Assembly: GCA_949316235.1 (NCBI GenBank)
Contig: OX438751.1
Location: forward strand, 2,090,413-2,154,412
Direction of reading: 5' to 3'
DNA length: 64,000 nucleotides
Source of the DNA: Oegoconia quadripuncta
Taxonomy: Eukaryota > Arthropoda > Insecta > Lepidoptera > Autostichidae
The notes beneath the pieces are model-generated. The model ran no database searches and was not told the DNA's origin. It saw nothing but the letters and a program-made list of their open reading frames with translations. The position numbers and the translations under genes are program-made. Shown piece after piece: positions 7,501 through 62,470 of the stretch; within the stretch, counting starts at the first letter, position 1, and each line of letters opens with the position of its first letter.

Positions 7501-10500
7501 AAAAAGCATAAACAAGACGACATTACTCAACAGATTTAGCCCTGTTTATCTAAATGTATATATATACAATGTGATAGGGGTGGTACTTCTAACCCATTAA
7601 GGCTAAATACTACATCCAAAAAAAATAATATGGGGGGTCCAGCCCTCTTCCCCCTAAATTTATGACCATTTTTATTTTATTTTCAATGTACTGCGGCGCG
7701 CTCGATACTTTATGCGATATCAAAGGTTTCATACGTCGTAGAAACATGAAAAAAATGGCAAACGGTACCTAATGATACTGGCTAACTAATCAATTACTTT
7801 GTTTTGTATGTTTGAGATTATTTTGGTAAGAAAAAAAAATTATTACTTAATTATTTTGTGATTTAAAATCACTTTTTTTATGTTTTCACGGATTGCTCAA
7901 AACTAAGTAATATTATTTTTTTTGTCGATGATTTTGGATGTAGTACTGAGCCTTAACGGGTTAGAAGTACCACCCCTATCACATTGTATATACTGCCGCG
8001 CGCCAGTATATATACATTTAGATTCGCGCCATCTATCGGATTGTCCTGGAACCCGTGAGAAAGGTACACTTGTACCTATTGAATTGTTTAGAGATGGGTT
8101 CACGGGTTCGCCGATAAATGGCGCCAGTCTTTACATAATTGTGCCGACAGCGTCAGGTGAAGTTCTATACTGAACACAGCTTTATGTAACTTGTATAGCG
8201 GCATATCTTTCAAACTATGCTCAAGCGCTGATCCATGCTTGGGCCACATTCTGAAATACGGGCCTTAGACTGGAGTCCGAGGTTGACTTGAGTCCGAGGT
8301 TGACTTGAGCCCGAGGTTGACTTGAGCCCGAGGTTGACTTGAGCCCTTCTGTGTAATTCGATTAATTCGTAATTGGTGTTTTGGGGTAAATTTTATTGCG
8401 CGAACTCAGTAGTCGGACACAGTTATTATTAATAATCATGTTTCTAATTTCAACAGATATATTTGTCGTAAGAGAGAGCGAGATAACAGACACCATGTAC
8501 TTTATGCACATGGGACGAGTGTTTGAGATCGACGAAGATATGGATGATACAATAAGTCAGTTTGACTCCGGTGAGCACTTTGGCATGGTGAGTATTTATT
8601 TTTGTTACATGCAAAACATTCTTTTTTTGATATAAGCTTATTCTCTAACCATAGTGATAGCCACGATGTTAATACAAGGAACAATATTGCGTCATCTGCT
8701 AATGTTAGCAGACTTCTCAAAGTTTGTAAATCCTTCAAAGGCCAATGAGAGGAGGCTATACCTCAATGGTGAGGACGTGTAAGGCTGCTTATGAGTGAAC
8801 TAATCTATCACAGGAAGTATCGCTAAAGCTACCATACATACCATACATACTCTACACTATCCAAGATGCACCCTCGCTTCGTCACAGCGTCTTTGTCGAG
8901 CTTACATAAAATAAAGACGTTTACGACGATGGTCAGGGATTTACTTCTAACAGTTATAATTTCTTGAAAGTTTTTAAATCGAACTTAAGGACTTGTATGA
9001 CGTATGGTTATAATTTTCCGTGAAACCCCGCTGAGGTGATAATATGATGAGGACATCAAAGTCTGTTACTTGACGTAGTCAATCAAGGTACCTGTCTATT
9101 GTTTAACGCTTGCAATTGCACATATAACGGTACTGAATATATTATTCATGTGTGTTTCATTTGATAAGCAATTCAACAATGGGTCTAGTTTAGTCTATAG
9201 GCTAGACTTATATTGTCAATGGCCAATCATGTTCAAAGCTTGAGTTCGTATGTTAGGTACTTTAACTATCTAAATTATAATATAAATTCAGTTGCAGGGT
9301 TTGGTACGAGATACGCCTTTTACATACTCTTATAAAGTCATGAGGAAATCTGAGGTCCTCAGTCTTCATCTGGACGACTGGGAGCATCTTTTGGCACATT
9401 TCCCAAAGAGCAGGTACGCCATTTACAAGAATATTCCTGATCATCCACCCAGTAATCCTCCTGGTGAAGACATCGGTTCGACAAAACCATCCAAAAAAGA
9501 TATGACGACCTCTGCAACTTCAGGTATAACGATACCTGCTAATCAGTTTGATAAGTCTACAGACGCTCTATCCCTGCCAGCAGTAGTTTCGGCAGCTCCA
9601 CAAGGCCCACCGACTGCAGCAGCAGCAGCCGCAGCATCCAGGAAACTGGCAGTCGCCGCGGCAGCTGGCGCAGGAGCAGCTGCAGCAGCAATAGAACAAA
9701 CTAAATCAAAAGGCAAAATAGAAACCCGTGATTTGAAGTTAAAAGAAATTCCCAGCCGTCTAGATACAGGCCCTCATGTAGAGCTAGACTCGTATCTTTG
9801 GCCGGTTGATAGCAGGCGTAAATCTGAGGAAATTGAAATAGACGCAACAGGTAAAAAGAAAACGGAGACGAGCAAACTTGCAACTCTTAAAGAAGAAACA
9901 AAAAAAGCAGAACAAAAAGAAAGTCTTGCAGCTATTAAAATCTCGACAAAAGACGAAACGAAAGAGATGAAGAGTAAATTTGCAATGCGTGAAGAGGAAA
10001 GTAAAATAGTAGAACCAAAAGAAAGTCTTGCAATTATTAAAAGCGCTCCAAGTGTTTCGGAACACGTTCAAGCATCAGATATTTTACTTGTACCTAAAGA
10101 AGAAAAACTACGCAGAGTATCATCGGACACCTCAGTTGCACACGAAGAAGAAGATGAGAAACCGCCACCATCAACATTCCTAAGAAGAATGACGCAGTCT
10201 GCAAAGAAATTTGTAAAATCGCAAGTAGATATTAATGATATCGAAGATTCTTTGCAAATGGAAGAAGACATGAAAACTACATCAGCGCTTTTAGAGAAAT
10301 TTGAAAAGAAGGCTAGACAGTCAGGTAGTCAGGCCAAACAAGGTTTTAAAGATGAAGACAAAGAATCTGTGAATAGAGATGCAGAGGAATTTAATGATTT
10401 AAGAGCACCTACTCATTCGAGCATCCCAGGACTTGTAGAAAAAGTTGACGCAAATGATGATGCCACCACTTCAAAAATGCCGCCTTTACCCTTTGATCGA

Positions 10501-11934
10501 AAAGCTGAACATGAACCGTCAACATCTATGAGTACTTTGGCTCCTAGGCGTTCAGTCATGCTCGAGATTCCTGATAAAATCTCCGAAGAGAAACAACCGC
10601 CCAAACTACCATTCCGAATACCTTCAGGAAGAGAAGATGAAGATCAGCCACCAAAATCTGTCCTAGCTCCTAGACATTCAGTTATGATAGAGCTTCCGGA
10701 ACAAAGTACAGAAGATGAAGACAGGAAACTGCCTTTCCAAAGACCCAGAGCCGAAGAAGACGAATATAACGTGCCAAAGGCGACATTGATGCCTAGACGT
10801 TCAGTTCTTATAGAAATACCTGACGATGATACATCTGCGCCATCTCTTCCAATTTATATTGGGCGAGATGACGACGATGAAGTGACAAGGGTACCAACGG
10901 TACCTAGACGATCAATTATCGTAGAACTTCCAAGCAGGCCATCTCAAGGTATAGCGACGATTCCAGAACTACGACGACACACACTTAATATAGATAATGA
11001 AAGTGACGATGAATCTATTGAAAACCAAAATATCACCCAAGCGCAGCGTGGACGTAGGCAATCATTACATTCAGCGGCCCTCAATGAAGATGTTGATGAT
11101 AAGACATTTACAATACGAATGAAACGAAGGCAGACTATTCCAGGTGTAGAGGATGACGTGGATGATGATGACGAAGAAGAGGAGGAAGTAGTTGTGCAGC
11201 CCACTAGAGAACGTAGACAATCTGTGCACCCGGCAGCCTTCGGTGGCGACCAAGACGAGGAGGAGGAGGACGCACCTCCACCGGCCCTAAGAGGCCGCAG
11301 ACAGTCGGTCCATCCAGGAGTCAATGTCGATGAGGAAGGGGAAACTATAACTGGACCTAGACGTTCTTACATCACATACGGTGAAAATGTAGACACGAGT
11401 GAAGGTACATCATACAAGTTTGAAGATAATAATGCTTCATCTAGTATGAAAGGGAAAAAGCGTAAGGAACCGCGCAAATCTGAACTTTACGACGATGCGA
11501 GTACCGACGATCTATTGAGAAGCGAGTCGCAAAGAAGTGTCGAGGGCTACATGCGGGAGAAACAGGAGGAATTTTATGAATCATCGAAATTGGCTGCGTA
11601 CGATAGAAGGCGTCAGAGCAAGCGGCGCACGGACGCCGGTGTGAATCTGCCGAGGCGATCGGTGCGTATTCACTATGGCGGTGAGGACGGTGAAGAAGAT
11701 GACGAACAAGCGCTTGTTCCACAGATGCAGCGTCAATCGGCGGTGCCGTACCCAGGGACACTGGAAGAGCGTGGTATGTCGGACGAGTTTAGACCGGCTA
11801 TGGATTTAACTGCAGATGAGAGGAATCTAATGATGATGGACAGCGATGCTGACCCGACGGTGATGCCACCTCAGTACCCTGCCAGACCAGGCACCGCCGA
11901 CAGATCGACGTCTCCGCCACCACCTCGTCACTGA
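4413..11934 (+). CDS. HCN/CNG-like channel protein with degenerate CNBD and long tail (left paralogue, 3' part)
   Basis: Five visible exons: 4413-4544, 4769-4942, 6568-6646, 8457-8587 and 9292-11934. They join in phases 0, 0, 1, 0 and encode 1052 residues; the N-terminus with S1-S5 and the pore lies upstream of the window. In order they give the end of S6 (M-I-Y-V-G-E-F), a C-linker with basic and aromatic residues, a CNBD (about residues 115-225 of the visible part), then about 830 residues of low-complexity tail. The fold order matches HCN/CNG channels of the plasma membrane. However, the CNBD lacks the phosphate-cassette Glu and Arg, so cAMP/cGMP binding is doubtful. The tail has an Ala-rich run, a four-fold repeat of about 40 residues, many R-R-x-S/T sites and Asp/Glu clusters. 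A paralogue lies at 51273-60760 (-). I do not recognise a specific named orthologue. Confidence 0.85.
4769..4942 (+). CDS. Left channel-like gene, visible exon 2 (C-linker)
   Basis: 58 codons, phase 0 to 0, acceptor AATCACCACAG, donor CAG/GTTGGT. Encodes K-R-Y-S-L-H-L-W then K-I-M-S-A-A-Y-L-K-H-L. It corresponds to the B'-F' helices of the HCN C-linker (there R-I-x-x-Y-Y-E-x-R-Y). The paralogous exon 59695-59868 is also 174 nt and clearly homologous. Confidence 0.85.
5778..6097. mobile_element. MITE with long terminal inverted repeats (family M1)
   Basis: Begins GGTGTCGATTC and ends GAATCGACACC. The arms extend about 55 bp (TGTACAACGAACTAACTAAA on both sides). The 320-bp body has no coding capacity, and AAT flanks both ends. 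It lies within intron 2 of the left channel-like gene. Related copies: 26032-26167 and 56404-56541. Confidence 0.8.
6346..6425 (+). mobile_element. Retroelement tail fragments: (ATCTA)n and an RTE-like 3' end
   Basis: A short AATAAATCTA-type pentanucleotide run closes one non-LTR tail. It is followed by 'ggagccctatgttcagcagtgg', a block also seen at 62752-62775, next to the ATG/GAT-rich end of an RTE-like element. Confidence 0.4.
6568..6646 (+). CDS. Left channel-like gene, visible exon 3 (start of CNBD)
   Basis: 79 nt, enters in phase 0 and leaves in phase 1; acceptor CTCTGTTCCAG, donor CCAG/GTATTG. Encodes H-P-A-F-K-N-C-E-S-A-F-L-R-Q-L-V-G-C-L then Y-T-Y-S-P-G. This is the A helix of a CNBD up to the P-G-D turn that opens the beta roll. 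The same-length paralogous exon is at 58328-58406. Confidence 0.85.
6691..6818. mobile_element. Hairpin MITE, family M2
   Basis: Imperfect inverted repeat with ends of the GGACCC-(C/T)-ATTCTCG type and an internal TGTCGATAGACAT block. It lies in intron 3 of the left channel-like gene. Family members: 29994-30354 (double) and 59394-59543. Confidence 0.6.
7173..7481 (-). mobile_element. tRNA-derived SINE, family A
   Basis: Antisense full-length copy within intron 3 of the left channel-like gene. Poly-T leads into ATGCATAACGGG, and the tRNA-like head ends at 7481. Confidence 0.9.
8274..8346. repeat. 17-bp tandem repeat, about 4 copies
   Basis: Unit AG(T/C)CCGAGGTTGACTTG repeated head to tail, 110 bp upstream of the fourth visible exon of the left gene. 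It probably arose inside a fragment of the 'cttgag' MITE (family M6); the flanking ACGGGCCTTA matches that element's end. Confidence 0.85.
8457..8587 (+). CDS. Left channel-like gene, visible exon 4 (CNBD beta roll)
   Basis: 131 nt, enters in phase 1 and leaves in phase 0; acceptor TTTCAACAG, donor ATG/GTGAGT. Encodes D-I-F-V-V-R-E-S-E-I-T-D-T-M-Y-F-M-H-M-G-R-V, the hallmark CNBD segment (compare G-D-x-I-x-x-x-G-x-x-x-x-x-M-Y-F-I-x-x-G-x-V). It ends S-G-E-H-F-G-M, where a canonical CNBD has F-G-E. Paralogous exon: 57386-57516. Confidence 0.9.
9292..11934 (+). CDS. Left channel-like gene, last exon: end of CNBD and 830-residue tail
   Basis: 880 codons plus TGA; acceptor AAATTCAG before TTG (L-Q-G-L-V-R-D-T-P), in phase with the previous exon. 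The paralogue starts M-Q-G-L-V-R-D at the same point. Residues 1-55 finish the CNBD (S-E-V-L-S-L-H-L then F-P-K-S-R-Y-A-I-Y-K). Then follow an Ala-rich run (about 109-136), W-P-V-D-S-R-R-K-S, K-E-S-L-A-I-I-K-S-A-P-S, S-T-F-L-R-R-M-T and E-E-D-M-K-T-T-S-A-L, all shared with the paralogue. At 10470-10940 there are four repeats of about 40 residues, each ending P-R-(R/H)-S-x-x-x-E-(I/L)-P, then four R-R-Q-S/T repeats with acidic spacers. The C-terminal D-L-T-A-D-E-R-N-L is also shared. The tail is predicted to be disordered and cytoplasmic. Confidence 0.88.
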   Translation: MQGLVRDTPFTYSYKVMRKSEVLSLHLDDWEHLLAHFPKSRYAIYKNIPDHPPSNPPGEDIGSTKPSKKDMTTSATSGITIPANQFDKSTDALSLPAVVSAAPQGPPTAAAAAAASRKLAVAAAAGAGAAAAAIEQTKSKGKIETRDLKLKEIPSRLDTGPHVELDSYLWPVDSRRKSEEIEIDATGKKKTETSKLATLKEETKKAEQKESLAAIKISTKDETKEMKSKFAMREEESKIVEPKESLAIIKSAPSVSEHVQASDILLVPKEEKLRRVSSDTSVAHEEEDEKPPPSTFLRRMTQSAKKFVKSQVDINDIEDSLQMEEDMKTTSALLEKFEKKARQSGSQAKQGFKDEDKESVNRDAEEFNDLRAPTHSSIPGLVEKVDANDDATTSKMPPLPFDRKAEHEPSTSMSTLAPRRSVMLEIPDKISEEKQPPKLPFRIPSGREDEDQPPKSVLAPRHSVMIELPEQSTEDEDRKLPFQRPRAEEDEYNVPKATLMPRRSVLIEIPDDDTSAPSLPIYIGRDDDDEVTRVPTVPRRSIIVELPSRPSQGIATIPELRRHTLNIDNESDDESIENQNITQAQRGRRQSLHSAALNEDVDDKTFTIRMKRRQTIPGVEDDVDDDDEEEEEVVVQPTRERRQSVHPAAFGGDQDEEEEDAPPPALRGRRQSVHPGVNVDEEGETITGPRRSYITYGENVDTSEGTSYKFEDNNASSSMKGKKRKEPRKSELYDDASTDDLLRSESQRSVEGYMREKQEEFYESSKLAAYDRRRQSKRRTDAGVNLPRRSVRIHYGGEDGEEDDEQALVPQMQRQSAVPYPGTLEERGMSDEFRPAMDLTADERNLMMMDSDADPTVMPPQYPARPGTADRSTSPPPPRH

Positions 11935-20599: not shown

Positions 20600-21548
20600 C
20601 TACCGACGGAAAAGGGCGAGTGACTGTGTTATGCGGATGACAGTACGGGTGATGCCTTATATGCCGGCCGTGCTAATATTTCTCGGGCGCACGTTGATAA
20701 GTTTCGGGACAAGCTTGTGTCTGAAATCGAGACCTCACTAGACCAAGTCTCTAATTGGGGCATTCTCAACCTAGTTAAGTTTAACCCTAAAAAGACACAA
20801 GTTTGCGCATTCACCGCAAAGAAGATTCCATTTCTCCTGTCTCTTCAATTTCAGAGCACTCCCCTTGACGTTAAGCTGAGTATTGGGATTCTCGGAGTTA
20901 ACATCTCTAGTAACGTTCAATTCCGCGGTCATCTGGAGGATAAGGCCAAGTTGGCCTCCAAAAAGTTAGGTGTCCTCAGTAGAGCGGCTCGTTACTTCAC
21001 GCCGGCTCACCGCCTCCAACTTTATAAGGCGCAAGTTCGGCCGCACGTGGAGTATTGTTCTCACCTATGGGCTGGGGCACCTCAGTACCAGCTTCTTCCT
21101 TTTGACCGCGTTCAAAGTCGCGCAGACCGACTGGATCCCCTGGCGTTGCGAAGAGACGTCGCGTCCCTCTGCATTCTCTATCGCATATTTCATGGGGAGT
21201 GTTCTGAAGAACTGTTCGAGCTAATACCCGCTGCTCAATTTAACCGATACACTTCTCGCCGAAAATTAAATTTCCATCCACATCACCTGGATGAGTGGAA
21301 GTCTACCACTGTACGTTTCTCAAGAAACTTCTTACCACGTACGATCACCCTGTGGAACGGACTTCCGGCAGCGGTATTCCCGAACGAGTACGACATTGGA
21401 ACATTCAAGAAACGAGCCTACACCTTTCTCAAAGGCCGCCAACGCATCTGTGACTCTTTTGGTGTTGCAGGTGTCCATAGGCGGCTGTGATTGCTTTCCA
21501 TCAGGTGACCCGCATGCTCGTTTGCCGCACTCTCATATAAAAAAAAAA
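20600..21548 (+). mobile_element. 5'-truncated non-LTR retrotransposon with reverse-transcriptase palm motif
   Basis: The open frame starts just after a TGA at 20612 with C-Y-A-D-D-S-T-G-D-A-L-Y, the Y-A-D-D catalytic box of non-LTR reverse transcriptase. It then continues through the thumb/C-terminal region (L-G-V-N-I-S-S-N-V-Q-F, A-R-Y-F-T-P-A-H-R-L-Q-L-Y-K-A, V-E-Y-C-S-H-L-W) for about 290 residues to 21490. A 3' UTR of about 50 bp ends in poly-A. The frame is intact but lacks everything before the palm. Jockey/CR1-like; clade not certain. Shorter sister copies: 1788-1940 and 28308-28445. Confidence 0.88.
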
Positions 21549-21654
21549 GACTTGTGTTTGGCGGCGTTGTGTGTGTGTCCAGTCTTTATTCGCATTTATC
21601 TCAGTAAGGCGTGGTTCGATTTGAGTGCGGTTTTCTTTATTAATCTAATGTTAC

Positions 21655-21805
21655 TAAGGCCCGTATTAATAAATCGTTCTTGAGTTTGAGATCGCGTCTC
21701 AGTCTCAAGACCATTTTTTGTGATGCTGTTTTAATATGCAGCAGATTCTCAAGTGTCAACTTGAGGCCATGTCAATCTTGAGAACGGTTTATTATGCGGG
21801 CCTAA
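21655..21805. mobile_element. MITE with ends TAAGGCCCGTATTAATAAA (family M6)
   Basis: Inverted ends (AGGCCCG...CGGGCCT) and internal CTTGAG/CTCAAG motifs in alternation. Other copies: 60130-60467, fragments at 39140-39295, 42640-42745 and 8255-8275. Confidence 0.75.
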
Positions 21806-24768: not shown

Positions 24769-24914
24769 CTATTTTAATTGTCATATAAAATGATGCGTCC
24801 ATTTTGTTAGTGTGGCCAGTATGATGGAATATATCACCCTATAGTTTTTTATTACTAAACATTTAGAATTGACATTATTTATTCTATAATAAGTATTGGT
24901 ATAGACAACCGATT

Positions 24915-25345
24915 ATTGTAATGGATAAGGGTCACTATCCACGACGAATTGTTACTGCAGAGTTGTACACTAACAATTGTTTGCCACTTGTCTTAGAAAA
25001 AGATCGGAAGAAACGACGTCGCAGTAGGATCCTCCTTCACCACGACAACGTCTCGTCGCATACCGCCAAGCAAACGATCAACTATTTGGCGACGTCAGAC
25101 GTGGAATTATTGGGTCACCCGCCGTATAGCCCCGACCGACCGACTTGCGATTTTTATTTATTCCCGAAAATAAAAGAAAGACTTCGAGGAAAACGTTTTA
25201 TGGATGCCGAGGAAGCAGTGCTTGGCTACGTTTCAAAGGCCGTCGAAGATACCCCTAAGGACGAGTGGGCAAAGTGCTTTTCCCAGTGGTTCCATCGATG
25301 GATGTGAATGGACGCTATTTTGAAAACATATAATAAAACTAATAA
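24915..25345 (+). pseudogene. mariner transposase C-terminal half (D,D34D), decayed
   Basis: The frame at 24921-25307 contains L-H-H-D-N-V-S-S-H-T-A-K and G-H-P-P-Y-S-P-D-R-P-T-C-D-F-Y-L-F. The two aspartates are separated by 34 residues, the mariner signature (first catalytic Asp missing). Usual S-P-D-L-A-P is changed to S-P-D-R-P-T. K-I-K-E-R-L-R-G-K-R-F and W-A-K-C-F-S-Q-W-F-H-R follow. A one-base frameshift near 25300 puts the expected D-V-N-G-R-Y-F-E-N ending out of frame. The 5' half and the terminal inverted repeats were not found. Confidence 0.88.
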
Positions 25346-25520: not shown

Positions 25521-26031
25521 ATTCTGAGTACATTGTGGAGCTGGTTTTAATCAAAAAATTTAACAATGAACAAATTCCGCAATGTACTCTGCTTTCGATC
25601 AAACGTTTTTTGGGGTAGTGTAATTCGATATACCATTATAAGTACATTCGATCGTGTGTTTCAAAAACACGATTCCCTTAAGTTTGTCCATAGAAACAAC
25701 CCAAATTACCTACGTCTGAAAGTACGTCAATGTTTTAGGTAAAATCATGAAACTTTAAGTGATAATTAAATCAAATATTATTTATGGAGTGGACTGTACC
25801 ACAAAATAATATCAAATAGATACAGCTTATAGAAACACAAACATAGATCAAATAAATATTTAGCGACCAATCAGGTGCAAGCCTTAATTTCTTTGTAGCA
25901 GGAAACAAGCTTTATACGTTTCAGTTAATTGCGTCCCAGAATATGTTCAATACAAACAAATTCCTGTTAAATGTCGAGTTGAGTAATCAATTCAATTCTT
26001 TATTCAATGAAATATAACATTGGTGTCGATT

Positions 26032-26167
26032 CGCATGTACACCAACTAAACTAAACTAAAACCAGTTTTGGAGTGATGCCGTCGCATTGTACTGTACCAG
26101 GGAGAAAGAGACGTACTCTAAAACTGGTTTTAGTTTAGTTTAGTTGGTGTACATCCGAATCGACACC
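26032..26167. mobile_element. MITE family M1, short member
   Basis: Ends GGTGTCGATTCG / CGAATCGACACC with arms continuing through TGTACACCAACTAAACTAAA and AAAACCAGTTTT. Total 136 bp, almost a perfect hairpin. The closest relative is 56404-56541. Confidence 0.85.
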
Positions 26168-27120
26168 AATCAAGACAAATTCTTGGTTTGTTGGCATTCG
26201 GACTAATTACTGTGTAATGCCCCAGCAGTGGACGTAAACCAACCTTCACTTGGCACGAAGCCAATGCATAGGTCAGGTAGAAAGCAAGAACGTTGGCAAT
26301 CACGTCGTAAACACAGAATTTAGACGGCTTTGTGTTAATGTTAGAAATAGAAACTAAAGAAATTCTTTATCACAAAATATTGACTGTTAAATTATTTCTG
26401 ATGGTGAAAGTTTTAAGCTGAAAGCAAGACTGTAATACAGAAACTAACACTATGATATATGATTATTCATCATTGATTAATATCATAGATTTTCCGTTTG
26501 AGTAGTACAATGTTCGATCTTCCATTATCGTGACGCGTTCAGAAATTGGCAGCTGTTTTGTAAACTTCGTGAGTTCCGCGTTGCTTTCAAAGGATTTTAA
26601 AACGTCTATCATGTTTTTCAACGATTATGTATAAATTTTATCTATTACCTACAACTCCGAGGCCTATAATGGTAAAAATGTTAAACTTTATACTATGAGT
26701 TTGACCTATTTTCCGCCGGTAGCTCCAAATCCCCAACGCGTGTATCTGCGTGCGCGTACGCAAGTATTGTTGCTAAAAACGCTACGGAGCTCCAGCATCG
26801 GCGCAAATAGCACGCGTTATCATTCTCCAGAAATGTAAATCGAGAGCAGGGCCGCATTCAGAGACCGCTGGAGAATTCCAGGCGGAAGAAATCCAAAGAT
26901 TATCGCTGGAATCCTGTCATGATTGATCACGAAAAATTTCTGTTTAATTTTGTTGTACCTACATATTTAATAGTCATTATCAATGGATGTAGCAGAATAC
27001 ATGTAAACATCTCAAAGCGTTGATCTTGATCTTTGTCGCCGGATTCCGCCGCGAGACGCATAATTAATCGTGACGCGTCACTCTCGCGAAATAGATTTTT
27101 GAATGGTGTGGTTACTTTAA
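26168..27120. other. Upstream region of the micropeptide cluster, mostly unassigned
   Basis: No ORF or known repeat except a possible RTE-like 'cagcagtggacgt' trace at 26224. The last 250 bp has several CG-containing words (GACGCGTCACTCTCGCG, CGCCGCGAGACGC), unusual for the AT-rich surroundings, and abuts the TATA box at 27126. It may contain regulatory sequence. Confidence 0.4.
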
Positions 27121-27125
27121 AACAA

Positions 27126-27160
27126 TATATACGAAGCGGCTTCTCCTAGTTCCATCAGTT
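27126..27160 (+). promoter_or_regulatory. Core promoter: TATA box and arthropod initiator
   Basis: TATATA at 27126-27131 and initiator TCAGTT at 27155-27160. The putative +1 A at 27157 lies 31 nt after the first T of the TATA box, the canonical distance. It drives toward the first micropeptide ORF, whose ATG is 41 nt downstream. A clear DPE was not seen. Confidence 0.7.
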
Positions 27161-27197
27161 GCCTGTAGACTGTCGGGACTCTCGGGGCGGATTCACA

Positions 27198-27287
27198 ATG
27201 ACTTCCGAGGGTACTAACCTGGTTGCCACCTACTGCATCCTCCTGTTACTCCTGATATCCCTGTGGTTGCTGTATTCAGCGTTTTAA
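27198..27287 (+). CDS. Sarcolamban-like micropeptide 1 (29 aa), SERCA regulator candidate
   Basis: ATG at 27198, TAA at 27285. Seven polar residues (M-T-S-E-G-T-N) are followed by a single hydrophobic helix, L-V-A-T-Y-C-I-L, a leucine run, then S-L-W-L-L-Y-S-A-F at the C-terminus. Drosophila sarcolamban peptides (28-29 residues) have the same plan: N-L-x-x-T-(F/Y)-x-I-L, a Leu/Phe-rich core and L-x-x-Y close to the end. They sit in the sarco/endoplasmic reticulum membrane and inhibit the SERCA calcium pump in muscle. The ORF lies 41 nt after a TATA/initiator start and is followed 11 nt after the stop by a consensus splice donor (GTGAGT, 27299). The whole peptide thus fits in one first exon (about 27157-27298). 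Recognition is from sequence pattern and memory, not alignment. Confidence 0.82.
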   Translation: MTSEGTNLVATYCILLLLLISLWLLYSAF

Positions 27288-27298
27288 CAATGACAACA

Positions 27299-27304
27299 GT
27301 GAGT
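27299..27304 (+). promoter_or_regulatory. Splice donor after micropeptide 1
   Basis: A/GTGAGT, a near-perfect 5' splice site 11 nt after the TAA. The 3' UTR of this micropeptide therefore probably continues in downstream exons. Confidence 0.6.
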
Positions 27305-27702
27305 ACTATTTCTTTTAGTTTTATTATAATAATCCGTGGTAGCTGAGGTTTTTAGAATATCTTACATCAACTACTATAATATTCACTGTGCAATTTTCTC
27401 AACGTGTTGTACCAATATCGAGATAGATAAATTTTTGTATTTAATATAACCGTATCCTCCTATTTTCCAAATGGAATTCGCTTTTAAATTTAAGTAGGTA
27501 GATATTTATATGATGTAGCAAGTCAGGAAACCATTGATGTTAAGCAATTAAATAGGTTGAAATTTTGTCGAAAATTCCAAAATTTCAAACTGGAAATATC
27601 CTTCCATCGAGTCAGTCCCTGTGCTCTGACGTACAAATGCTACTGAAGGCGAATCGAGGACCAAAACTCGATCAGTACTTGGTGCTCCGTTCCGTTGCAA
27701 CC

Positions 27703-27801
27703 ATGCCGATCAACGCAGAGACTGTGAACCTCGCCGCCACATATATGATCCTGGTGATCCTGCTCTTCTTCCTCTGGCTACTCTACTCTGTCGTCTTCTA
27801 G
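27703..27801 (+). CDS. Sarcolamban-like micropeptide 2 (32 aa)
   Basis: ATG at 27703 in the good context GCAACCATGC; TAG at 27799. The frame is open upstream to 27565, but homology to copies 1 and 3 begins at M-P-I-N-A-E-T. The helix has N-L-A-A-T-Y-M-I-L, then F-F-L-W-L-L-Y-S and a V-V-F end. The N-terminus is three residues longer than copy 1. A consensus donor GTGAGT follows at 27813, 11 nt after the stop, just as in copy 1. The two exons therefore look like tandem duplicates that kept both ORF and donor. Its own promoter or acceptor is not certain; a TCAGTA initiator-like word is at 27672. Confidence 0.82.
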   Translation: MPINAETVNLAATYMILVILLFFLWLLYSVVF

Positions 27802-27812
27802 CGCCAGTTCCT

Positions 27813-27818
27813 GTGAGT
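27813..27818 (+). promoter_or_regulatory. Splice donor after micropeptide 2
   Basis: T/GTGAGT, placed at the same distance after the stop codon as the donor of copy 1. Confidence 0.55.
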
Positions 27819-28005
27819 GTATATACGGCTTAATTTCATAACGCTGAAAAATAACCGGTTCAAAATCAACACCTGTCAACCGAATCTATTATTGAAACTT
27901 GGGTATTGGCGTGGAAGGCGTGGCGTGTGGGCGATAACGTCGGCGCGACATTCGCGGCGGTCCTCCCAGTTCCCTGGAGCCAGTTGTCCAGTGCAGGTGA
28001 CCAAG

Positions 28006-28101
28006 ATGCCGAACCACGAGACGACGAACCTCATCGCCACCTACATGATCCTCGTTTTGCTCCTGGCGAGTCTGTGGCTGCTCTACGCGGGAATGTTCTG
28101 A
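28006..28101 (+). CDS. Sarcolamban-like micropeptide 3 (31 aa)
   Basis: ATG at 28006 (CCAAGATGCC), TGA at 28099. Begins M-P-N-H-E-T-T-N-L, continues I-A-T-Y-M-I-L-V and ends S-L-W-L-L-Y-A-G-M-F. It is closer to copy 2 at the start (M-P-x-x) and to copy 1 at the end of the helix (S-L-W-L-L-Y). A plausible acceptor (TTGTCCAGTGCAG, ending 27996) lies 9 nt before the ATG. After the stop only a weak GTGCTT is seen instead of GTGAGT, so this may be the terminal exon of the cluster. The coding stretch and its 5' flank are GC-rich compared with the neighbourhood. Function is inferred from the family: single-pass SERCA-binding peptide. Confidence 0.82.
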   Translation: MPNHETTNLIATYMILVLLLASLWLLYAGMF

Positions 28102-28307: not shown

Positions 28308-28445
28308 AATGCCTACACCTTCCTCAAAGGCCGGCAACGCATCTGTGACCCTTTTGGTGTTGCGGGTGTCCATGGGCGGCGGTGATTGCTTTCCATCAGG
28401 TGACCCGCATGCTCGTTTGCCGCCCTCTCATATAAAAAAAAAAAA
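28308..28445 (+). mobile_element. 3' tail of non-LTR element (20.6-kb family)
   Basis: A 138-bp tail copy: the end of the RT frame, CATCAGGTGACCCGCATGC and poly-A. Located 200 bp after the third micropeptide ORF. Confidence 0.8.
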
Positions 28446-60760: not shown

Positions 60761-61173
60761 CTGATGAACAAAATCACGAAATTCGTCTACCGAATGCGGG
60801 GAACGACCATCTCACTTCACACTTGGTCGTTCGCAGTATCCGGCCAACTGACAGAAATGCGAGGAGAGCTATTACCTACATACATTATAATCCTTTACCT
60901 AATGAATAATTAGTTACGTATAAGCACAGAACAGTGGGATTTACTGGCAGCTTACTTAGCTCGCATTTAGGAAACTATTAAAAATGGCAATCCTTCAGTT
61001 TCAAAAGTTAAATATTCCAAAGAGACGTCGCGAGGCGGTGGCGGTTGCTGTAAGACGGTAAACTGCTATTTAGCGGGCATATACGATGGATAAACGTGTA
61101 AGTCCATAACTGTTTAATAAAAGTATTATACTTACATCTATAAATCTAAAAATCATTTGCACCCAAAGAGACT

Positions 61174-62470
61174 TTGTCTTCAATAACTAATTATAATAAG
61201 GACCTGGAGAATATTACTAGTTGGTCCACTAAGAACAGCCTCGTACTTAACCCCTCGAAATCTAAGTATATGATTATTGGTTCTAAGAAACAAGTAGGTG
61301 ACATTTCAAACTATAACCCGGACGTTATTGTGTTGAACAATAGTATCGAGAGGGTTGAGGAGGCAAGAAATCTAGGTATCCTGATGGATGATGGTCTGAG
61401 ATTTGAGAATCACATTGTGCGTTTAGTACAAAATTGTTTCTTCCGCCTAACGGTTCTTTACAAAATTCGTCACCTTTTAAAAGAAGAAGTACGTATTAAG
61501 CTGTGTGAGTCGTTAGTCCTCTCAAAACTCAACTATGGGGATTTAGTATTTGGACCGCGACTGCTCTCTAAAACCCAACGACTCATTCAACGTGTACAGA
61601 ATGCCTGTTATCGCTACTGTTATACTATTCCACCACGTAGTCATATTACCCCGTATCTGAATAATAATGCTACTTTAAACATGAAGTCTCGCAGACAGTT
61701 TCATCTGGCCTGCCTAATGTTCGATATTATGAATAACCGGAGTCCGGGATATCTATATAACAAGCTACATTTATCTCCCTTCCACCGCAGGTACAATACC
61801 AGACCTACTCGGACTCTGTTGGCAGGTTATCAACACAAAACCGTCGCGTTCAGAGGTTGCTTTCGCTATCAGGCTACAAAGTGTTGGAATAATCTGCCCC
61901 CACCTCTCCGATGTCCAATGACGAAACTGACCTATAAAACTCATGTCAAACGTGCAATACTTGATAAGCAAGAAATTGGCATACCTGATAGATACATCAC
62001 ACCCTTTTGAAAAGTACCCACCTATCTAATGCATTACATTTTAGAATATCCATTATTTATTAATCTATGCACCTGTTTTACAATGTTTACGATATATTTA
62101 TTTACATCTACTTAGATATTTATTCTAGTATAAATATATAATAATATATACTTAAATATGATTTATTGTTTATAATAACTTGTATAATATCAATATACCT
62201 AATCATGTGTATTTCATATCCATTTGCGTTCTCATACCGCTCACTAGTTCCAAACTGGTCCCAACAGAATACCAGCGCTCCATCCGTCCGCGGGCGGAGC
62301 ACCATGCTGAGTTGGAACCATTTTGTCCCTACAGCACATAATAACTGATATTTTAGAATTTTTATTCCTGTAATACTGCTATACTGTTCTGTTCTGTATT
62401 ACCAATTGTTATAATTGTGCAATGTGCTTAGAGGCAAATAAACAAATTATCTATCTATCTATCTACATAC
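61174..62470 (+). mobile_element. 5'-truncated non-LTR retrotransposon, intact RT C-terminal frame, (ATCT)n tail
   Basis: An intact frame of about 278 codons begins near the thumb region: L-V-L-N-P-S-K-S-K-Y-M-I-I-G, N-L-G-I-L-M-D-D, K-I-R-H-L-L-K-E-E-V-R-I-K-L, L-V-L-S-K-L-N-Y-G. It ends C-W-N-N-L-P-P-P-L-R and Y-K-T-H-V-K-R. These are standard C-terminal motifs of jockey/CR1-like reverse transcriptases. The Y-A-D-D box is lost by truncation. The 3' UTR of about 450 bp closes with AATAAACAAATT and an ATCT repeat. It sits upstream of, and antisense to, the right channel-like gene. Confidence 0.87.

Follow-up and report, generated by a model that had tools for sequence, protein, structure and literature searches.

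Three tandem sarcolamban-like micropeptide reading frames in the moth Oegoconia quadripuncta

The genome of Oegoconia quadripuncta contains three short open reading frames (ORFs) of 29, 32 and 31 codons, arranged in tandem on the forward strand within 904 bp, counted from the first ATG to the last stop codon. They very probably form a tandem array of three sarcolamban genes or exons, whose products would be tail-anchored single-helix peptides that lower SERCA activity. The family itself is known already, as a Pfam family with lepidopteran members in the databases; the set described here adds three tandem copies to it. The ORFs lie in a stretch of 64,000 nucleotides (the window; C10:2090413-2154412 in the 622.6-Mb assembly of 45 contigs). 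Their number, lengths, common strand and overall span had been given in a preliminary description of this DNA and were confirmed here (Table 1).

Table 1. Location of the three ORFs and of candidate features around them, numbered from the first nucleotide of the window
Feature	Position	Strand	Basis or remark
Candidate ORF1 core promoter	27126-27159	+	TATATA 27126-27131, initiator-like TCAGT 27155-27159, spacing 31
ORF1, sarcolamban-like peptide, 29 aa	27198-27287	+	PF21898 below cut-off; no database relative found
Candidate 5' splice site GTGAGT	27299-27304	+	11 nt after ORF1 stop; rank 75 of 3715 GT sites
Upstream ATG in frame with ORF2, and the 22 codons it would add	27637-27702	+	Relatives diverge here; the next 32 residues are nearly invariant
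ORF2, sarcolamban-like peptide, 32 aa	27703-27801	+	PF21898 above cut-off; four relatives
Candidate 5' splice site GTGAGT	27813-27818	+	11 nt after ORF2 stop; rank 51 of 3715 GT sites
ORF3, sarcolamban-like peptide, 31 aa	28006-28101	+	PF21898 below cut-off; Plutella xylostella relative

Homology, selection and copy number

The three ORFs are homologous to one another beyond chance. Each peptide, used as the sole query against the window, found the other two at E values of 2.1e-6 to 1e-8, and the next-best match of any of the three was at 0.36 or weaker. With ORF2 as the query, the other two scored 26.3 and 30.8 bits, and the best of 20 first-order Markov shuffles of the window, which were run for this query only, scored 11.8 bits. 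The motifs N-L-x-A-T-Y-x-I-L and L-W-L-L-Y are common to all three peptides, as first described, and no further segment carries both among the 2,793 six-frame stop-to-stop segments of at least 15 residues in the window. The coding sequences align pairwise at z scores of 6.0, 8.9 and 10.4 relative to shuffles. Their flanks had been called diverged, and the 90-bp flanks showed no similarity in five of six comparisons; the weak exception was the region upstream of ORF1 and ORF3 (z = 2.5, equalled by 2 of 300 shuffles). All three ATGs have an A at position -3.

The differences between the paralogues fell at codon positions 1, 2 and 3 in the numbers 25, 20 and 51, so that 51 of 96 lay at the third position (89 codon comparisons). 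The Nei-Gojobori dN was 0.303, 0.31 and 0.276 for the three pairs. The dS was saturated for ORF1-ORF2, 1.583 for ORF1-ORF3 and 1.269 for ORF2-ORF3. This pattern supports the original suggestion that the peptides are under selection and points to purifying constraint, with the reservation that some 30 codons are a small sample and that dS is high.

Whole-assembly searches with ORF2 and ORF3 returned three places each, all in the cluster (three candidates each; both counts are lower bounds), and a fourth copy was rejected on these results. In the six-frame genome search with the Pfam Sarcolamban profile (PF21898), nine places were listed. ORF2 came just short of the cut-off with 26.3 bits and ORF1 reached 17.3 bits, ORF3 was not among them, and the E values of the other seven were 0.086 or weaker. 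The profile also gave weak matches in 2 of 14 prokaryote control genomes, all below the cut-off, so that chance alone should produce hits of this strength. On inspection by eye, six of the seven other places held short, broken or partial frames. The best of them, an ATG-initiated frame of 24 codons at C15:18451334-18451393 (minus strand, E = 0.086), has an Asn inside its hydrophobic stretch and is probably a chance match. The proposal of an expanded three-member set in this genome is thus supported by the three places found in the ORF2 and ORF3 searches, but this does not set the genome apart, since peptides of the ORF2 and ORF3 types occur in other Lepidoptera as well.

Family assignment and relatives in other Lepidoptera

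For each peptide, a Pfam search at E values up to 10 returned PF21898 and no other family. ORF2 reached 28.1 bits (E = 1.7e-6), above the curated cut-off of 27, whereas ORF1 (19.5 bits, E = 8.4e-4) and ORF3 (18.6 bits, E = 1.6e-3) stayed below it. These matches support the sarcolamban-like character proposed from the sequence. The Sarcolipin (PF05366) and Phospholamban (PF04272) profiles gave no match for ORF1-ORF3 at E values up to 10. The sequences that we take to be human sarcolipin and phospholamban, used as positive controls, matched their own families, and each other's weakly, but not Sarcolamban. Those that we take to be Drosophila SclA and SclB, also run as controls, scored 68.8 and 65.4 bits against PF21898. 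Their C-termini agree with those quoted in the accessible part of PMC9338278. A search of solved structures with ORF3 returned ten rhodopsin sequences at E values of 1.5 or weaker, which were taken as chance matches.

The database query with the 54-codon form of ORF2 returned four proteins out of four candidates: one of Spodoptera exigua (64 aa, HW555_012239), one of Leptidea sinapis (59 aa) and two further records of 67 and 32 aa. Over the 32 residues of ORF2, the S. exigua and L. sinapis proteins show 97% identity, with 19 of 19 core positions the same, but they have different leaders. ORF3 with 12 upstream codons returned one protein, from Plutella xylostella, in which 28 of 31 residues are the same (90% identity). 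Its core agrees with ORF3 at 17 of 19 positions and with ORF2 at 14 of 19, and its N-terminus is of the ORF3 type. Conservation of the reading frame in related species was therefore seen for the ORF2 and ORF3 types. No relative was found for ORF1, queried with 13 upstream codons, in a search that needs shared exact words and similar length, so that this negative is weak evidence. No relative of the ORF2 form was found in the viral and prokaryote collections.

The four ORF2-type relatives (P0001-P0004) scored 24.2, 25.4, 26.5 and 26.6 bits against PF21898, all below the cut-off. The Plutella relative (P0005) scored 14.2 bits, also below, and matched the unrelated DUF2189 slightly better (16.6 bits, again below the cut-off of that family). 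The precomputed annotation of the database assigns PF21898 to P0002-P0004, three of the five relatives. The preliminary description had expected such ORFs to be missing from gene sets. This holds in part only: the relatives are annotated as hypothetical or unnamed proteins, with no family name in the titles, and a Pfam family exists.

The hypothetical proteins of S. exigua and L. sinapis (ORF2-like) and P. xylostella (ORF3-like) have cores nearly identical to those of the window peptides. Their gene models differ from the window peptides in N-terminal extensions of 27-32 residues, which vary between species and are probably spurious. The ATG at 27637 would give a 54-aa form of ORF2. By eye, in an alignment on LCSD, this ATG is a different codon in P0001 and P0003, and we judge 27637-27702 to be a leader rather than peptide. 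Conservation begins at MPINAET in the ORF2 type and at MPNHETT in the ORF3 type while the extensions of the relatives vary, which favours the starts at 27703 and 28006. The short LCSD match, seen by eye just 5' of the 27637 ATG, may reflect a conserved leader. Because peptides of both the ORF2 type and the ORF3 type occur in other Lepidoptera, their duplication looks old. It would predate the divergence from Plutella if the relatives are orthologues.

No description of lepidopteran sarcolambans was found in the literature searched, which was itself partial. The founding scl paper (Magny et al. 2013) lies outside it, and its alignment may cover Lepidoptera already. Neither sarcolamban nor SERCA occurs in the main text, as far as accessible, of a survey of small ORFs in Bombyx (PMC9841908).

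The lengths of the three peptides and their best 19-residue hydropathy (2.46, 2.65 and 2.32 for ORF1, ORF2 and ORF3) fit a peptide of about 28-32 residues with one membrane helix that ends near the C-terminus. For ORF2 this is joined by an AlphaFold2 model, made with seven relatives, of one helix at residues 5-31 (mean pLDDT 93.4, pTM 0.53). A 19-residue core was compared over ten sequences: the three window peptides, the five database relatives and the two fly peptides in the sequences assumed above. Eight of the 19 positions are invariant over all ten and shared with SclA and SclB, which answers the call for an alignment to the fly peptides; six (0, 3, 7, 11, 14 and 18) form a helix face and the other two are 6 and 10. 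The 11 positions invariant in the first eight sequences cluster on one side of the helix (permutation p = 0.0024). Positions 0, 3, 7, 11, 14, 18, 6 and 10 presumably correspond to phospholamban 31, 34, 38, 42, 45, 49, 37 and 41. Phospholamban has an Asn at position 34, where it is essential according to the available text of PMC8396278. The aligned core position 3 is a Thr in ten of ten sequences.

Drosophila SclA and SclB (gene scl, formerly pncr003:2L; PF21898) share with the window peptides the length (presumably 28 and 29 aa in the fly, and 29, 32 and 31 aa here), the single hydrophobic helix, the clustering of small ORFs and a tyrosine close to the C-terminus. The fly gene has two ORFs, whereas the window has three. 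On the fly sequences as assumed, F-T-T-F is replaced by x-A-T-Y and a Y by W in the window peptides, and the core identity to them is 8-12 of 19. Core position 1, an F in the fly, is occupied by A, V or I in ORF1-ORF3 but by F in the Plutella peptide. The assumed fly A and B peptides agree at 14 of 19 core positions, and the lepidopteran types agree among themselves at 12-15 of 19, more than with fly A or B, which hints at separate duplications in flies and Lepidoptera, with 19 columns being too few for a tree. Vertebrate sarcolipin and phospholamban are likewise single-helix SERCA regulators. The phospholamban-like cytoplasmic domain is absent from the window peptides. Sarcolipin also has W-L-L near its C-terminus, as seen in the luminal peptide quoted in the accessible part of PMC9338278. 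Taken on sequence comparison, the prediction that ORF1-ORF3 encode sarcolamban-type single-helix SERCA regulators is well supported.

Candidate exons, promoters and neighbouring sequences

A GTGAGT stands 11 nt behind the stop codons of both ORF1 and ORF2. Given 23 GTRAGT on the plus strand of the window, the probability that two of the three ORFs would be followed by one at a distance of up to 30 nt is approximately 3.5e-4, a post hoc figure. The GT sites were ranked with a donor matrix. A weaker donor-like site follows the ORF3 stop directly (28103, rank 171 of 3715), and sites that score equal to or better than the GTGAGT pair lie at 27997, just before the ORF3 ATG, and at 28400. In a simple acceptor scan, no site close upstream of ORF2 had a good pyrimidine tract, and those before ORF3 were only middling. 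A separate exon for each ORF is plausible on this arrangement.

The candidate core promoter would place the transcription start (A+1) at 27157, 41 nt before ORF1. Three TATATA/TCAGT-type pairs occur on the plus strand of the window and 1.41 are expected, so that only the position is suggestive. A block of weak similarity is common to the ORF1 and ORF3 leaders. It is equalled by 6 of 1000 shuffles at 120 nt and by 34 of 1000 at 200 nt, and 26 of 1255 other blocks of the window match the ORF1 leader core as well. The similarity of the ORF1/ORF2 and ORF2/ORF3 leaders is at chance level. Promoter sharing was rejected with two leader pairs at chance and the ORF1/ORF3 pair just suggestive. MEF2-like sites were uninformative, with 34 in the window and one inside the cluster (27484). 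A separate promoter for each ORF is a guess.

Instead of separate promoters or alternative first exons, one tricistronic transcript, spliced or unspliced, could encode the whole set and so extend the arrangement of the fly gene, which is bicistronic according to the accessible part of PMC11475943. We regard this as a serious possibility, though short of a probable one. The ORFs are close together on one strand, and the GTGAGT after ORF1 and ORF2, with the weaker site after ORF3, fits an ORF1 exon, an ORF2 exon and a terminal ORF3 exon. The acceptor scan before ORF2 and ORF3 speaks against it, and the weakly similar leaders of ORF1 and ORF3 would be in keeping with separate promoters instead.

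Between 23001 and 32402, a six-frame Pfam scan with E values up to 0.01 reported ORF2 only; it missed ORF1 and ORF3 and could also miss short exons of other genes. Two long open frames, at 9286-11931 (plus strand) and 54104-51276 (minus strand), contain a related block of 54 residues with 70% identity, which on the minus strand lies in the frame 54104-52959. A cyclic-nucleotide-binding domain, below its cut-off, lies at 57568-57230 (minus strand), upstream of the 54104 frame. The two frames look like paralogous channel-type genes that face each other approximately 39 kb apart, with the cluster between them. A pair of inverted arms, each about 55 bp long, was seen by eye around a short spacer upstream of the cluster (26020-26169), like a miniature inverted-repeat element. 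A repeated block that ends in an A-run occurs at 28320-28445 and in frames at 21270-21680 and 1670-1975, and presumably resembles a dispersed element common in Lepidoptera. At 20624-21487, 61150-62007 and 24873-25304 (plus strand) lie open frames that appear retroelement-like by eye, with no Pfam match at E values up to 0.01, and a DDE_3 transposase fragment below its cut-off.

Predicted action on SERCA

The SERCA family model TIGR01116 gave 16 matches in the genome, none over the cut-off, because the genes match exon by exon. The model matches all 14 prokaryote controls, two of them over the cut-off, and so lacks specificity at this level. The best of the 16 matches (E = 1.7e-174) extends across an apparent intron and forms, together with several others, a multi-exon gene at C11:19132917-19140114; weaker matches lie on C3, C8, C15 and C18. 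The frames of the C11 gene read FVEPF...VWQ, which we take to be SERCA M2, and a stretch of 20 residues that keeps DGLPAT, which we take to be M6. The contact residues of SERCA are widely conserved, so their presence does not discriminate. The contacts of vertebrate regulins in SERCA include F88, F92, Q108, G801 and T805, some of them from models, in the available text of PMC8396278. The C11 gene covers all five in our own numbering, which is consistent with the spacing in that paper.

In Drosophila, binding of Scl lowers SERCA activity and mutants have impaired calcium handling (PMC9338278, accessible part). By analogy, each ORF would be translated into a tail-anchored peptide of 29-32 residues, which would form one helix in the sarco/endoplasmic reticulum membrane. 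The conserved helix face would lie against SERCA and occupy its groove, and pump activity would be lowered as by SclA and SclB. We hold this sarcolamban reading with high confidence, although ORF1, ORF3 and all five relatives score below the PF21898 cut-off and the core identity to the assumed fly peptides is limited.

The peptides could also belong to the Scl family by descent while at least one of them has a changed role, either as a non-inhibitory displacer or as the regulator of another pump. Vertebrate DWORF is such a non-inhibitory peptide and displaces an inhibitory one. Regulins of opposite effect are described in the accessible part of PMC8396278, four core positions (1, 9, 12 and 13) set ORF1 and ORF3 apart from ORF2, and their PF21898 scores are lower than that of ORF2. 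The invariant Thr and a core without proline count against a changed role, and we consider it improbable. Short leucine-rich ORFs are common and ORF1 had no relative in the database search, but we give next to no credence to the idea that the three are hydrophobic ORFs that arose by chance, or decayed copies that have no function, which was rejected on their mutual homology, codon-position bias and intact frames and on the relatives in other species, and is already contradicted for ORF2 and ORF3.

As an enlargement of a known family, the sarcolamban array is genuine but modest. To a micropeptide family of proven function it adds a set of three tandem copies in Lepidoptera, and both types that could be compared, ORF2 and ORF3, show constraint between species. 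Vertebrates divide the control of SERCA among phospholamban, sarcolipin and myoregulin. We speculate, tentatively and with more doubt than belief, that the lepidopteran set of three paralogues arose apart from fly A and B and that each peptide has its own exon, and perhaps its own promoter, which would let the moth choose its SERCA regulator by tissue, along the lines of the tissue- or stage-specific tuning of calcium uptake that was first suggested. If so, the moth would pick the regulator in flight muscle, heart or larval body wall. Being compact, the cluster lends itself to the question of whether paralogous peptides share out the control of SERCA in insects as they do in vertebrates.
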